Positions 7,002 to 12,930 of a stretch of 22,232 nucleotides of DNA are shown piece by piece. The stretch is from positions 1 to 22,232 of IMG/VR virus record IMGVR_UViG_3300031951_001315. One strand, 5' to 3'. The notes beneath the pieces were generated by a model that saw only the letters and a program-made list of their open reading frames with translations, made no database searches and was not told the DNA's origin. Position 1 is the first letter of the stretch. Each line of letters opens with the position of its first letter. The translations under genes were made by a program, and so were the position numbers. The DNA comes from a virus.

Positions 7002-7913
7002 ATGGCTATTTCACGCGCACAACTGCTGAAAGAGTTGCTCCCTGGTCTGAACGCTTTGTTCGGTATGGAGTATTCTCGTTACGGCGAAGAACACAAAGAG
7101 ATCTACGAAACTGAGACCTCTGAGCGTTCGTTTGAAGAAGAGACCAAACTGTCTGGATTCTCCGCCGCTCCGGTGAAGAACGAAGGCTCTGCAATTGCTT
7201 ATGACAACGCGCAGGAAGCTTGGTCAACCCGCTATACGCACGAAACCATCGCCTTGGGTTTCTCGATCACTGAAGAAGCGGTCGAAGATAACTTGTACGA
7301 CAGCTTGTCTGCTCGCTACACCAAGTCGCTGGCTCGCGCTATGGCTTACACCAAGCAAGTCAAGGCTGCTTCGGTCATTAACAACGGTTTCTCCAACACC
7401 TACGCAGGTGGTGATGGCGTTTCCCTGTTCAATGCCAGCCACCCCTTGATCTCCGGTGGTGTCAACAGCAACACTCCCTCCACTCAAGCTGATTTGAACG
7501 AGACTTCTTTGGAAGCCGCCGTTATTCAGATCGCCGCTTGGACGGACGAGCGTGGTTTGTTGATCGCAGCCAAGCCCAAGAAGATGGTTGTTCCCCCTGC
7601 CCTGATGTTCGTGGCCAAGCGTTTGCTGGACACCGAACTGCGGGTCTCTACTGCTGATAACGATATCAACGCTATCAAGCAGATGGGTGCAATCCCTGAA
7701 GGCTACTGTGTCAATCACTTCTTGACTGACACCAATGGCTGGTACTTGACCACTGACGTGCCTAACGGTATGAAGCACTTTGTCCGCACCCCCTTGCAGA
7801 ACAGCATGGACGGTGATTTCGACACTGGCAACGTCCGCTACAAGGCCCGTGAGCGTTACAGCTTCGGCTGGTCTGATCCCCTCGGTATGTGGGGTTCTTC
7901 AGGTTCAACCTGA
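7002..7913 (+). CDS. Major capsid protein (HK97-type fold, probable)
   Basis: This would build the icosahedral shell. It is 303 aa and starts at ATG after AAGGAG. It opens with a helix (RAQLLKELLPGLNALFGMEY), as coat proteins of this group do. A charged E-loop-like stretch follows (YETETSERSFEEETKLSGF), then a spine-helix region (EEAVEDNLYDSLSARYTKSL, RAMAYTKQVKAASVINNGF) and the P/A-domain segment with NASHPL, KKMVVPPALMFVAKRLL and NHFLTDTNGWYLTTD. The gene follows a scaffold and is followed by a terminator, as expected for a highly expressed gene. No delta-domain protease target is obvious at the N-terminus. It shows some resemblance to Mu gpT-like head subunits. Confidence 0.88.
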   Translation: MAISRAQLLKELLPGLNALFGMEYSRYGEEHKEIYETETSERSFEEETKLSGFSAAPVKNEGSAIAYDNAQEAWSTRYTHETIALGFSITEEAVEDNLYDSLSARYTKSLARAMAYTKQVKAASVINNGFSNTYAGGDGVSLFNASHPLISGGVNSNTPSTQADLNETSLEAAVIQIAAWTDERGLLIAAKPKKMVVPPALMFVAKRLLDTELRVSTADNDINAIKQMGAIPEGYCVNHFLTDTNGWYLTTDVPNGMKHFVRTPLQNSMDGDFDTGNVRYKARERYSFGWSDPLGMWGSSGST

Positions 7914-8737: not shown

Positions 8738-9053
8738 GTCACCTGCATGGCAACGCAAGGAAGGCAAATCCGAGAAGGGCGGCTTGAACGCCAAGGGACG
8801 GGCTTCCTACAACGCAGCCAATCCGGGCAAGCCGGGGTTAAAAGCCCCGCAGCCCAAGGGCGGCAGCAGGCGCGACTCTTTCTGTGCAAGGATGACTGGG
8901 ATGAAGAAAAAACTCACATCCGAGAAGACAGCCAACGACCCAAACAGTCGGATTAACAAGAGCCTACGGGCTTGGAATTGCGCCGAGGGTGGGTATGTGA
9001 ACTCAGCAGATGGCATCGCCACCAAAGGCAAAACTAAGGGTAGGTTTGTCTGA
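8730..9053 (+). CDS. Small basic protein with C-terminal ADGIATKGKTKG tag
   Basis: A 107-aa, very basic protein starting at ATG 8730 inside the stop of the previous gene. The N-terminal half (SPAWQRKEGKSEKGGLNAKG, then RASYNAANPGKPGLKAP, GGSRRDSFCARMTGM, and INKSLRAWNC) resembles a conserved phage/bacterial domain of unknown function; DUF6321 is my tentative recollection, unverified. The end carries SADGIATKGKTKG (9003-9041) followed by RFV, a motif repeated in three later proteins. High Lys/Arg and Gly suggest nucleic acid or capsid-interior contact, but this is inference. Confidence 0.75.
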   Translation: MAKSPAWQRKEGKSEKGGLNAKGRASYNAANPGKPGLKAPQPKGGSRRDSFCARMTGMKKKLTSEKTANDPNSRINKSLRAWNCAEGGYVNSADGIATKGKTKGRFV

Positions 9054-9301
9054 TGGAGATGGCTGTTTGGAACGCTATTTTGACGGCCTTTCTGGGGCTA
9101 ATTGGTTGGAATCTGAAAGAGAAGTCCGATGAGATCAAACGCCTTCAGATTTTGATTAACAAGACCCGAGAAGAAATGCCCAAAGAGTACGTGACCAAGA
9201 TAGACTTGCACACAGATATCAATCGAATCATGGACAGGTTGGACAGGCTAGAAACCAAGATCGACATGTTCATGAAGGAGCAACGAAGTGCCCTCAGTTA
9301 G
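9053..9301 (+). CDS. Small membrane-anchored coiled-coil protein
   Basis: An 82-aa protein in a TGATG overlap with the previous stop. Residues 4-20 (AVWNAILTAFLGLIGWN) form one hydrophobic segment. The rest is a charged helix with a clear heptad pattern ending in INRIMDRLDRLETKIDMFMK. This N-terminal membrane helix plus coiled coil is seen in many small phage proteins, including some spanin- or holin-like ones, but also in virion proteins. Its place among head genes, away from a recognisable lysozyme, leaves the role open. Confidence 0.7.
   Translation: MEMAVWNAILTAFLGLIGWNLKEKSDEIKRLQILINKTREEMPKEYVTKIDLHTDINRIMDRLDRLETKIDMFMKEQRSALS
9275..9290 (+). promoter_or_regulatory. Ribosome binding site supporting a GTG start
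   Basis: AAGGAG at 9275-9280 lies 7 bases before GTG 9288, inside the coding region of the previous gene. It fixes GTG as the start of the next protein, whose second to sixth residues (PSVSK) match the usual start of that family. Confidence 0.75.
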
Positions 9302-9788
9302 CAAGAAACAACATAACTTCATGGCGGCGGTGGCCAACAATCCAGCGTTTGCCAAGAAGGTTGGGGTCCCTAAAAGCGTGGGGCAAGATTTTGCCGCTGC
9401 TGACAAAGGCAAGAAGTTTGGCGCGGGTACCCGTGCTGATTTGCAAGGTGTGAACAAGCCCAAAACCAATCAGGGCAAAACTGAACTTTTTAACAAAGGT
9501 GGCGAAATGAAAGAATCTAAAGCAATGGTCGGTAAAGAGATGGCCTTCATGAAAAAGAAGGGCGCTCCTGCTTCCATGATGAAACATGAGAAGGCCGAGA
9601 TGATGGGCATGAAAAAAGGTGGCATGAAGAAGATGGCCTCTGGTGGCATCGCCGCTTCAAAAATGGGTTCTGTTAGAACCGCCGCTCCCAGTGTGGACGG
9701 ACTTGCTGCCAAGGGTAAGACCAAAGGCACTCAAGTCAAAATGGCTGGCAGCAAACCTCTGGGTATGAAAAAGGGCGGCAAAGCCTAA
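9288..9788 (+). CDS. Basic Lys/Met/Gly-rich protein, DUF3008-like N-terminus, C-terminal tag
   Basis: A 166-aa protein starting at GTG and overlapping the previous gene by 14 bases. Its N-terminus, SKKQHNFMAAVANNPAFAKK then VGVPKSVGQDFAAADKGKKF, resembles the small DUF3008 family (recollection, not checked). The middle is low-complexity, rich in Lys, Met and Gly (MKKKGAPASMMK, MGMKKGGMKKMASGG). It then has VDGLAAKGKTKG (9693-9728), a variant of the tag shared by neighbouring genes, followed by another basic stretch ending MKKGGKA. Disordered and highly positive, it may bind DNA or the capsid interior. Function unknown. Confidence 0.75.
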   Translation: MPSVSKKQHNFMAAVANNPAFAKKVGVPKSVGQDFAAADKGKKFGAGTRADLQGVNKPKTNQGKTELFNKGGEMKESKAMVGKEMAFMKKKGAPASMMKHEKAEMMGMKKGGMKKMASGGIAASKMGSVRTAAPSVDGLAAKGKTKGTQVKMAGSKPLGMKKGGKA

Positions 9789-9800
9789 AAGGAGCCTGAC

Positions 9801-10469
9801 ATGGCACGAGGACGAGATTTAGCTGGGCTTGCAGCCCTCGCTGGGTTGGCCTACATGGCCAACAAAAAAGGCAAAGAAACCACCGGGGTTGACCCCGATG
9901 CGGCTATGGGCGCTGGCGCAGTTTCCCCCGAGGACGCCCGTGGCAACGCCGAGATGGCGCGTATGGCAGCTTTAGACAACCCTGACTTCGAGCCCGGTAT
10001 GTACACGAAGGAGCCCGGTGGGGATTCCGCGCCTGCACCCGCTCGTGCCGCTCCTACTCGTTCTGTTGCTGCGGCCCCTGCCCGCCCCAACATTGTGAGT
10101 CGGGAAGAAGGAATGAAGAACTACGTTCCTCGCCGCAAACCGCCTGCCAGTACAGTGTCCTCTTCAGAAGAAGGAATGAAGAACTACGTTCCTCGTCGTA
10201 CCCCGCAAGCCCAAGCTCCCGCCCGAGCCGCCGCTCGCCCTTCTGCCGCTGAACAAAAGTATTCTGCTGATCCGGATGCAACCATTGGTAAATTTGTTCC
10301 CGGCATAGGGTATGTAGATGTCAACGGGAATATCATGTCTCGCAATAGGCAGTACAAAAAAGGCGGCGCAGTCAAGACCAAAAAGATGGCCAGTGGTGGC
10401 ATGTCTTCGGCTTCTAAACGTGCTGACGGTATTGCCACTCGCGGCAAGACCAAGTACAAAATCTATTGA
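9801..10469 (+). CDS. Ala/Pro-rich low-complexity protein with internal repeat and C-terminal tag
   Basis: A 222-aa protein with GGAG 6 bases before ATG. It starts with a hydrophobic segment (LAGLAALAGLAYMA) and a basic patch that might touch the membrane. The central part is Pro/Ala-rich and disordered. Two near-identical blocks, EEGMKNYVPRR, occur 21 codons apart. A small ordered patch (IGKFVPGIGYVDVNGNIMSR) precedes a basic end with KKGGAVKTKKMASGG and RADGIATRGKTK (10419-10454). The tag is shared with three neighbours. No known family; a virion or DNA-associated linker protein is only a guess. Confidence 0.7.
   Translation: MARGRDLAGLAALAGLAYMANKKGKETTGVDPDAAMGAGAVSPEDARGNAEMARMAALDNPDFEPGMYTKEPGGDSAPAPARAAPTRSVAAAPARPNIVSREEGMKNYVPRRKPPASTVSSSEEGMKNYVPRRTPQAQAPARAAARPSAAEQKYSADPDATIGKFVPGIGYVDVNGNIMSRNRQYKKGGAVKTKKMASGGMSSASKRADGIATRGKTKYKIY
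10104..10195 (+). repeat. 29-bp direct repeat encoding EEGMKNYVPR
   Basis: An identical 29-base block occurs at 10104-10132 and 10167-10195, 63 bases apart and in the same reading frame. The bases after it differ only at synonymous third positions for the next Arg, so the peptide repeat is EEGMKNYVPRR. The perfect DNA identity suggests a recent duplication, or slippage-prone expansion, of a short linear motif. Confidence 0.9.
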
Positions 10470-10477
10470 GGTGAATC

Positions 10478-10882
10478 ATGGGGCGCTTTACAAGACATGG
10501 CATGGACAACCAACCGCTTGAGGGCGGTGGCGGGGGTGGGAGTGGTATTGCCAGCAAAATTGGAAATGCTATTGGTGCCGCTGGTGCTGCCGGGGTAGCA
10601 GCCACTCCTATTGGTGTTGCCTATAAGGCCAACGAGTTGGCAAAAGAACGTGAAGCCGCTGCTGGAAAGAAGCGGGAGGCTGCCGCTGAGATGAAGCGCG
10701 AAACCCGAGGGGTAGAGAAGTCTGGTACTGACAGAGCGCGGGAAGCCGCCAAAGTTATTTCAGACGATGAGAAGTACACCAAGGAAACCCCGGATCAAAA
10801 GTACGCCAAGGGTGGTACTGCTTCCTCTCGTGCTGATGGCTGTGCTCAGCGGGGTAAGACCCGTGGGACGATCATCAAATGA
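10478..10882 (+). CDS. Gly/Ala-rich helical protein with C-terminal tag
   Basis: A 134-aa protein with GAGGTGA before ATG. It opens with a poly-Gly linker (EGGGGGGSG) and then a Gly/Ala-rich hydrophobic stretch (IGNAIGAAGAAGVAATPIGVA) that could be a GxxxG-type membrane helix. A charged helix follows (ELAKEREAAAGKKREAAAEM). It ends with AKGGTASS and the tag RADGCAQRGKTRG (10829-10867), then TIIK. The stop overlaps the next start. A membrane-active, amphipathic virion protein is conceivable; no family is recognised. Confidence 0.7.
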   Translation: MGRFTRHGMDNQPLEGGGGGGSGIASKIGNAIGAAGAAGVAATPIGVAYKANELAKEREAAAGKKREAAAEMKRETRGVEKSGTDRAREAAKVISDDEKYTKETPDQKYAKGGTASSRADGCAQRGKTRGTIIK

Positions 10883-11157: not shown

Positions 11158-11387
11158 AAGCGCCGCAGGCTTCCCTTAAAAATTGGACTGACCAAAAATG
11201 GAGAACCAAAAGTGGAAAACCGTCTAGCAAAACAGGTGAGCGATACCTTCCAGAAGCTGCGATCAAAAGTCTCAGCCCTGCTGAGTACGCTGCGACAACG
11301 CGGGCAAAGCGAGCAGGTAAAAAAGCCGGAAAACAATTCGTAGCGCAACCAAAAAGCATTGCGAAGAAAACAGCAGGGTTTAGATAA
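11154..11387 (+). CDS. Small basic conserved protein
   Basis: A 77-aa protein. The preferred start is TTG 11154, which overlaps the previous stop TGA (11155-11157) and gives a protein starting with the KAPQASLKNW segment; no strong Shine-Dalgarno is present, so coupling must do the work. The sequence has WTDQKWRTKSGKPSSKTGER, YLPEAAIKSLSPAEYAATT, RAKRAGKKAGKQFV and PKSIAKKTAGFR. This is a recognisable conserved module of unknown function in phages and some bacteria. It is strongly basic. It could form a pair with the preceding gene. The frame is open further upstream to 11088, but that would overlap a well-supported gene. Confidence 0.7.
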   Translation: MKAPQASLKNWTDQKWRTKSGKPSSKTGERYLPEAAIKSLSPAEYAATTRAKRAGKKAGKQFVAQPKSIAKKTAGFR

Positions 11388-12316
11388 TGGCAGTCACATC
11401 TGGCGCAACAACATTCAACCTTGACCTGACAGAGTTGGTCGAGGAAGCCTACGAGCGTGCTGGTTCGGAGTTGCGCACGGGTTACGACCTGCGTACAGCG
11501 CGGCGTAGCCTCAACATCATGTTTGCAGATTGGGCCAGTCGCGGCATCAATATGTGGACGTTCGAGCCGGGCATCATTGACTTGGTTCAAGGGCAAAACA
11601 CCTACGCACTGCCAGACGACACCATTGATCTGCTGGAGCATGTGATTCGCACGGGTGGGAACGTGGCGGCAACGCAAGCCGACCTGACCATCACCCGTAT
11701 CAGTGTTTCTACTTACGCTACGATCCCTAACAAGATTCAACAAGCTCGCCCAATTCAAGTGTGGGTGCAGCGGTTTAATGGCCAGAACTCGCCCGTGAGC
11801 GCAACTCTGAGCACCACAATTACTTCGTCGTCTACTGAGATTGTGTTAAGCAATGCTACGGGTTTACCCGCATCTGGGTTCATCAAGATCGACAACGAGA
11901 TCATCAACTACGGATACATAACAGGCAATACCCTGTATAGCTGCTTTCGTGGCCAACAAAATACCACTGCGGCGGCTCACACTGCTGGGGCGATTGTGTA
12001 CTGGGCGCAAGTCCCGGCAGTCACAGTTTGGCCGACTCCCGACAATGCCCAGACGTATCAGTTTGTGTACTGGAGACTGCGCCGTACCCAAGATGCGGGT
12101 GGCGGTGTCAACGTTATGGACGTGCCGTTCAGGTTCATTCCCTGTATGGCGGCGGGCTTGTCCTACTACATTGCTGGCAAGATTCCTTCTGGTTTTGAGC
12201 GTATTCCCATGCTGAAGTCTCAGTATGACGAAGCTTGGCAGATAGCGGCTGGCGAAGACCAAGAGAAAGCGTCTGTTCGCTTTGTGCCTCGTCAGCAGTT
12301 CATTGGTGGAACTTAA
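11387..12316 (+). CDS. Head-to-tail adaptor-like protein with inserted beta domain
   Basis: A 309-aa protein in a TAATG overlap. Residues 10-60 form the helical bundle typical of adaptors: LTELVEEAYERAGSELRTGY then ARRSLNIMFADWASRGINMW, followed by GQNTYALPDDTIDLLE. Such proteins (P22 gp4 and T7 gp11 types) bind beneath the portal and close the channel. Residues about 138-206 hold an extra beta module (SATLSTTITSSSTEIVLSNA, FIKIDNEIINYGYITGNTLY, CFRGQQNTTAAAHTAGA) that interrupts the adaptor fold, which resumes at AVTVWPTPDNAQTYQFVYWR. The insertion may be displayed on the virion. The adaptor call is from family resemblance and gene order. Confidence 0.75.
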   Translation: MAVTSGATTFNLDLTELVEEAYERAGSELRTGYDLRTARRSLNIMFADWASRGINMWTFEPGIIDLVQGQNTYALPDDTIDLLEHVIRTGGNVAATQADLTITRISVSTYATIPNKIQQARPIQVWVQRFNGQNSPVSATLSTTITSSSTEIVLSNATGLPASGFIKIDNEIINYGYITGNTLYSCFRGQQNTTAAAHTAGAIVYWAQVPAVTVWPTPDNAQTYQFVYWRLRRTQDAGGGVNVMDVPFRFIPCMAAGLSYYIAGKIPSGFERIPMLKSQYDEAWQIAAGEDQEKASVRFVPRQQFIGGT

Positions 12317-12753: not shown

Positions 12754-12930
12754 ATGGACACGAAGACAGTGAAGAAAATTGCCGACAAGGAAGTCATGGC
12801 GCATGAAAAACGCCTGCACCCCAGTGCAAAAAAGATGGCTGCTGGTGGCAAGACCAACTCCCAGATGCTTAAGTATGGGCGTAATATGGCCAAAGTAATG
12901 AACCAGCGTAGCCCTGGTCGTGGAGGCTGA
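12754..12930 (+). CDS. 58-aa basic helical protein
   Basis: ATG 12754 follows a strong AAGGAG (12743-12748). The protein is helical and very basic: MDTKTVKKIADKEVMAHEKR, then HPSAKKMAAGGKTNS, QMLKYGRNMAKVMNQR and a Gly end. The KKMAAGGKT stretch echoes the KKMASGG segments of earlier genes in the cassette. I recall similar very short proteins with an AHEKR-like motif and a YGRNMAKVMNQ-like end in aquatic phages; their role is unknown. The strong RBS and neat fit between neighbours support coding. Confidence 0.7.
   Translation: MDTKTVKKIADKEVMAHEKRLHPSAKKMAAGGKTNSQMLKYGRNMAKVMNQRSPGRGG

Follow-up and report, generated by a model that had tools for sequence, protein, structure and literature searches.

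Why do four neighbouring small proteins of one phage end in the same short peptide? The window, which is an entire IMG/VR virus record (22,232 bases), has by domain and profile matches the gene content of a tailed-phage late module, with a large terminase, a portal, a GroES-like protein, a scaffold-like protein, a capsid protein and two SU10-type adaptor proteins. In-frame translations place the motif DG[ILC]Ax[KR]GKT[KR] at or near the ends of four proteins, and a degenerate DNA pattern gave exactly four matches on both strands of the 22 kb, against 0.00 in 100 dinucleotide shuffles. A sequence-only reading had already located these peptides; all four are present and in frame, and its wording that they lie at or near the C-termini is accurate, three being terminal and the second only near the end, with 19 residues following.

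All four proteins are encoded on the plus strand. P1 (8730..9053) has a DUF6321 domain at residues 11-81 and then the C-terminal tag ADGIATKGKTKGRFV before the stop, within which tag 1 (9003..9050) reads SADGIATKGKTKG-RFV. P3 (9288..9788) has an N-terminal SKKQHNFM domain (phrog_16759) and carries tag 2 (9693..9728), the stretch from the tag to the stop being VDGLAAKGKTKG-TQVKMAGSKPLGMKKGGKA. P4 (9801..10469) is an orphan with a disorder-like body, comprising an Ala/Leu/Gly-rich N-terminal stretch and a repeated EEGMKNYVPRR, and finishes in tag 3 (10419..10466; RADGIATRGKTK-YKIY), and P5 (10478..10882), likewise an orphan, has a Gly/Ala/Lys-rich body and finishes in tag 4 (10829..10879; RADGCAQRGKTRG-TIIK), which has one extra residue. 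As had been noted, a KKGG..KKMASGG segment precedes the tag in the 9288 and 9801 ORFs and AKGG occurs in the 10478 ORF; P1 has AEGG. The bodies of the four proteins gave no match among one another, in agreement with the claim that they otherwise differ. The repeat in P4 is an internal tandem duplication (10104-10211; 45-nt copies at 63-nt spacing), and segments resembling MRNYVPRRP or GMRGYKPRRP also occur in tagged proteins of relatives (L027 and L107).

When IMG/VR was scanned by the motif alone, at least 120 stretches were returned, many with two to six copies, and 121 of the 123 motif-found loci share at least three window genes (among the matches listed); the tag therefore marks one lineage, a big one made up largely of uncultured phages from water. 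Of 12 stretches that the pattern picked out in 257 Gb of bacterial and archaeal genomes, only 3 hold real tags (L125, L127 and L136), on phage-like contigs with this phage module. The tag is neither as frequent in bacterial proteins as in these phages nor scattered at random positions, an outcome that favours the sequence-only reading. Its suggestion of a wide class survives insofar as the tag is common in uncultured phages, but the tag belongs to a single lineage whose members share a capsid module and is not a general phage motif. The 344 lineage loci yielded 546 tagged proteins, spread over 260 of them; these counts refer to distinct proteins and not to independent events because the loci are incompletely dereplicated. 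Of 31 loci selected by their capsid and extending at least 4 kb beyond it downstream, 27 have the tag and two more have variant tags. A tblastn search of phages with the short peptide, a method limited for short queries, gave no match, and a literature text search for tag strings found none, a weak result given how seldom peptide strings in publications can be found by text search. Among reference phages, cultured or complete, nine were compared: eight have a related capsid protein, and the ninth, HTVC115P, came in via DUF6321 and gave no related capsid in the capsid comparison. Only Pag-Yong1, a cultured cyanophage of Planktothrix, has the tag among these nine, in one divergent copy (AKGGAVKRERYASGGMIGRDGCAKRGRTKGRFI, followed by the stop) that ends a 308-residue protein (UMO75986.1) between the minor capsid and adaptor genes; the Synechococcus phage MinM2 gave the same pattern match as Pag-Yong1, again within that interval. 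Pag-Yong1 thus offers a cultured system where the tag can be studied.

The earlier description of one shared C-terminal tag stands as to the C-terminal location, but there are two positional classes rather than one. In the terminal class, to which tags 3 and 4 belong, the sequence is K-x-GG-x-V-S-S-A-S-[KS]-R-A-D-G-[IC]-A-[QT]-[RK]-G-K-T-[RK]-G-[KR]-[MIF]-[VCI]-stop, with V, I, L, C or Y as the terminal residue in nearly all cases. The extended class reads T-A-A-P-S-[RK]-D-G-[IV]-A-x-K-G-K-T-K-G-[TK], followed by 10-30 residues and usually a final Cys (77 of 108 tags); tag 2 belongs here, with TAAPSxDGxAxKGKTKGT. Of the 546 tagged proteins, 60% have exactly 4 residues between the motif and the stop and another 32% have the motif 10-30 residues from the end, mostly with a final Cys; ∼98% of tags are no more than 30 residues from the C terminus. 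The only N-terminal form occurs in a side family, small proteins related to window ORF 12754-12930. That D, G, A, G and T look fully invariant in the logo is owed in part to the search pattern, and an HMM search that relaxed the pattern found 100 further tag variants. A further form is GGG[IC]E[SV][KR]GKT[KR]G; the idea of genome-specific tag dialects was rejected, as GGG[IC]Ex[KR]GKT co-occurs with the DGxA form in 34 of 36 loci.

The bodies that carry the tag are very diverse. Those of at least 35 residues, 485 in all, fell into 130 clusters, 97 with a single member; only 20 of 384 same-locus body pairs share a cluster. No PHROG match at E 0.001 was obtained for 125 of 126 body representatives, one representative had a weak Pfam match at threshold, and the Pfam and PHROG search of the 126 found no recognisable decoration or fibre domain. 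A basic character is usual among the tagged proteins (median pI 10.2; 10th percentile 6.3), although some bodies are acidic. The clearest case of tag modularity is DUF6321, a body found both tagged and untagged. P1 clearly belongs to this group of phage proteins (PF19846, E 9.6e-19, 68.3 bits against a gathering cut-off of 28.5), but the DUF6321 proteins of phage isolates stop before the tag, whereas P1 and some of its relatives have it, and the tag is an addition in this lineage. AlphaFold2 modelled the P1 body with pLDDT mostly 70-86 and tag residues 88-106 below 50, so that the tag is predicted to be an unstructured extension on the DUF6321 body; a fold search with the DUF6321 model gave no match.

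At their other ends some tagged proteins share further segments. P3 has an N-terminal SKKQHNFMAAVANNPAFAKKVGVP segment in common with phiKZ PHIKZ165.1 (phrog_16759), and the N-terminal parts of the virion structural proteins phrog_22033 and phrog_25121 also match P3, but the match stops at about residue 33-43 and the matched part contains no tag. Within the P3 N terminus (9288-9410), the segment SKKQHNFMAAVANNPAFAKKVG recurs in PHIKZ165.1 and other large-phage proteins as a short mobile N-terminal module. Many tagged proteins (L211, L033, L207, L016 and others) have short N-terminal starts in common, for example MKKRKFADGG or an Ala/Leu/Gly-rich stretch, which are perhaps a second module. Membrane-helix N termini were rejected as a general feature, the lower threshold being reached by only 15% of terminal-class bodies versus 5% of shuffles. 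A dockerin/EF-hand-like PDLTGDGKITRADVLKGRGVF lies inside some tagged proteins (L010 around 5012; L279 at 1665-2018).

The genomic position of the tag is narrowly defined. Among the 146 genomes that have both borders, the stretch from the major capsid gene to the SU10-type adaptor gene holds 385 tags; another 16 lie shortly after the adaptor start, and there are none upstream, elsewhere or on the opposite strand. The mean is 2.6 tags per genome (range 0-6). The borders in the window, both on the plus strand, are the major capsid protein (7002..7913; Phage_capsid_4 / Mu gpT-like), upstream as in relatives, and the adaptor (neck) protein (11387..12316; PF24175, E 2.3e-7), downstream. In whole records of 17-87 kb the tags are likewise confined to a single cluster on a single strand; a reversed-pattern control in these records gave zero matches. 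The untagged neighbour P6 (10879..11157, plus strand; phrog_17747) accompanies the tag in nearly all lineage loci; it ends KAKGGGYRD and is also found in HMO-2011-type phages and pelagiphages without the tag, in some near lysis or terminase genes. Beyond the adaptor, P10 (12920..13132, plus strand) carries a different conserved C-terminal peptide, RGTGAATKGLMARGPMA before the stop, on a variable body. Of 189 matches to this peptide, RGxG[AC]ATKGxxARGPMA-stop, 186 have it exactly 8 residues from the stop, and the sequence upstream varies; the grammar of the peptide (G-x-A-x-K-G) resembles that of the main tag.

Across the lineage the invariant tag residues are encoded by mixed synonymous codons, all of those available being used, and the tag peptide is under purifying selection. 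A search of the window for direct DNA repeats did not pick up the tag, and the earlier claim of synonymous codon differences holds for that reason; a DNA-level element was rejected because the codons vary and the repeat is lacking. The broader proposal of a modular C-terminal peptide, conserved at the protein level and reused on unrelated proteins, is supported. Within a genome, terminal-class tags on different bodies are more alike in amino acids than expected (similarity 0.531 versus 0.417 ± 0.019; 0 of 1000 permutations), and their third codon positions have no clear excess similarity (155 of 1000 permutations). In pairs matched for amino-acid similarity, same-genome codon likeness is slightly higher (0.505 ± 0.034 versus 0.441), and 4 of 117 same-genome terminal-class pairs have near-identical DNA (at least 95%), from which it follows that occasional copying occurs. 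The within-genome covariation is compatible both with adaptation to a shared partner and with older copying followed by constraint, and part of the similarity could come from old copying.

The reading that we favour, with a probability of roughly 0.4, is that hypervariable head-associated proteins may carry the tag as a C-terminal peptide for targeting or docking, most likely for incorporation into the virion. It draws on one lineage, one capsid-adaptor cluster, a fixed C-terminal distance, unrelated bodies, DUF6321 with and without the tag, and the purifying selection acting on the peptide. The tag would act as a C-terminal docking label by which proteins that are small, basic and mostly unstructured, and whose repertoire changes, would be recruited to one binding site formed in head or neck assembly. 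Most likely they would then become part of the virion, in the way that the hypervariable internal proteins of T4 do through its capsid targeting sequence. A single reader protein, packaging into the virion and possibly delivery to the host are what we infer beyond this. More tentatively, the tag may constitute a lineage-wide C-terminal address system in which a single genome-encoded reader in the capsid or neck would load between one and six small, rapidly changing proteins in each phage by means of a universal end-tag, a separately evolved C-terminal counterpart of the T4 sequence with freely swapped cargo.

Several other roles have to be weighed against docking for packaging. If the tag and the basic bodies served to neutralise or condense head DNA in a protamine-like manner, without a specific protein reader, the high median pI would be accounted for, and lysines of T4 internal proteins do contact packaged DNA (PMC3012670). 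A charge-only role would tolerate shuffling, however, so the retention of an acidic D, a small A and an uncharged T and the fixed C-terminal spacing tell against it, as do the acidic bodies that still keep the tag, and we consider such nucleic-acid binding unlikely. Docking on the outside of the capsid or neck, as a decoration or an assembly chaperone, would suit a tag cluster that adjoins cement/decoration-like and adaptor genes, but with bodies that seem unstructured and hypervariable and lack a recognisable decoration or fibre domain it is unlikely. A C terminus that ends in two hydrophobic residues or Cys might also be read by a protease, chaperone or modifying enzyme as a processing or turnover signal. 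We find this quite unlikely, as ten upstream residues are conserved in the tag, whereas known degrons generally need only the last few residues, and the restriction to the head cluster would be left unexplained.

The remaining two explanations fare worse. The tag clearly spreads between genes, and the near-identical same-genome pairs would suit a functionless residue of gene duplication or a mobile coding sequence, but the mixed synonymous codons at invariant residues, the lack of a DNA repeat in the window and the retention of the tag on 130 body clusters make this very improbable. DGIAQRGKT fits the Walker A pattern of a phosphate-binding P-loop (GxxxxGK[ST]) literally; natural variants with H, Y, L or F for the lysine and V for Gly effectively refute that reading, and no domain follows the motif, the protein ending a few residues later.

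Some of our observations count against the targeting reading itself. Tag divergence was compared with that of 19 neighbouring genes, and no partner stands out (r 0.04-0.24). P6 was rejected as a partner: the marine phages with P6 that were examined have no tag, and its divergence is the least correlated with that of the tag. Most isolates with a related capsid have no tag, among them HTVC027P, HTVC023P, DSL-LC04 and CRP-902, and the tag is therefore not needed for building this capsid. There is no covariation between the two positional classes, which may therefore have different readers. An ssrA-like C-terminal LAA is absent, the tags ending in V, C, I, Y or L after M, I or F, or in GGKAC.

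If the tag is a packaging address, hundreds of small phage proteins without other annotation would become likely candidates for factors that are head-associated or injected; restriction inhibitors belong to this class in T4. A compact C-terminal tag for putting foreign proteins into phage heads would then also be at hand. Whatever its mechanism, the tag allows a widespread lineage of phages, most of them uncultured, to be recognised by sequence.

Among known systems, a resemblance to the GroES mobile loop was considered and dropped because the hydrophobic triplet is missing. Encapsulin cargo-loading peptides are short, lie at the extreme C terminus of unrelated cargo proteins and are read by an HK97-fold shell. 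The tag is like them in being a short C-terminal peptide at a fixed position on unrelated proteins, but their known sequences differ from it, and the shell here would be a phage capsid whose binding is putative. The T-even internal proteins IPI-IPIII offer a second comparison: a short conserved capsid targeting sequence (CTS) is carried by hypervariable small proteins whose genes are tied to head formation (PMC3012670, PMC9026906), and ten residues suffice for targeting (PMC9026906). The likeness lies in a conserved peptide on highly diverse bodies, but the T4 CTS is an N-terminal propeptide, whereas the present tag is C-terminal and has a different sequence. A stand-alone protease was absent among the window proteins searched, in a record that may be incomplete, and the capsid protein matches protease-capsid fusion families in the capsid part only. 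By analogy, the best reading is that the tag would work like the T4 CTS yet stand outside that family.
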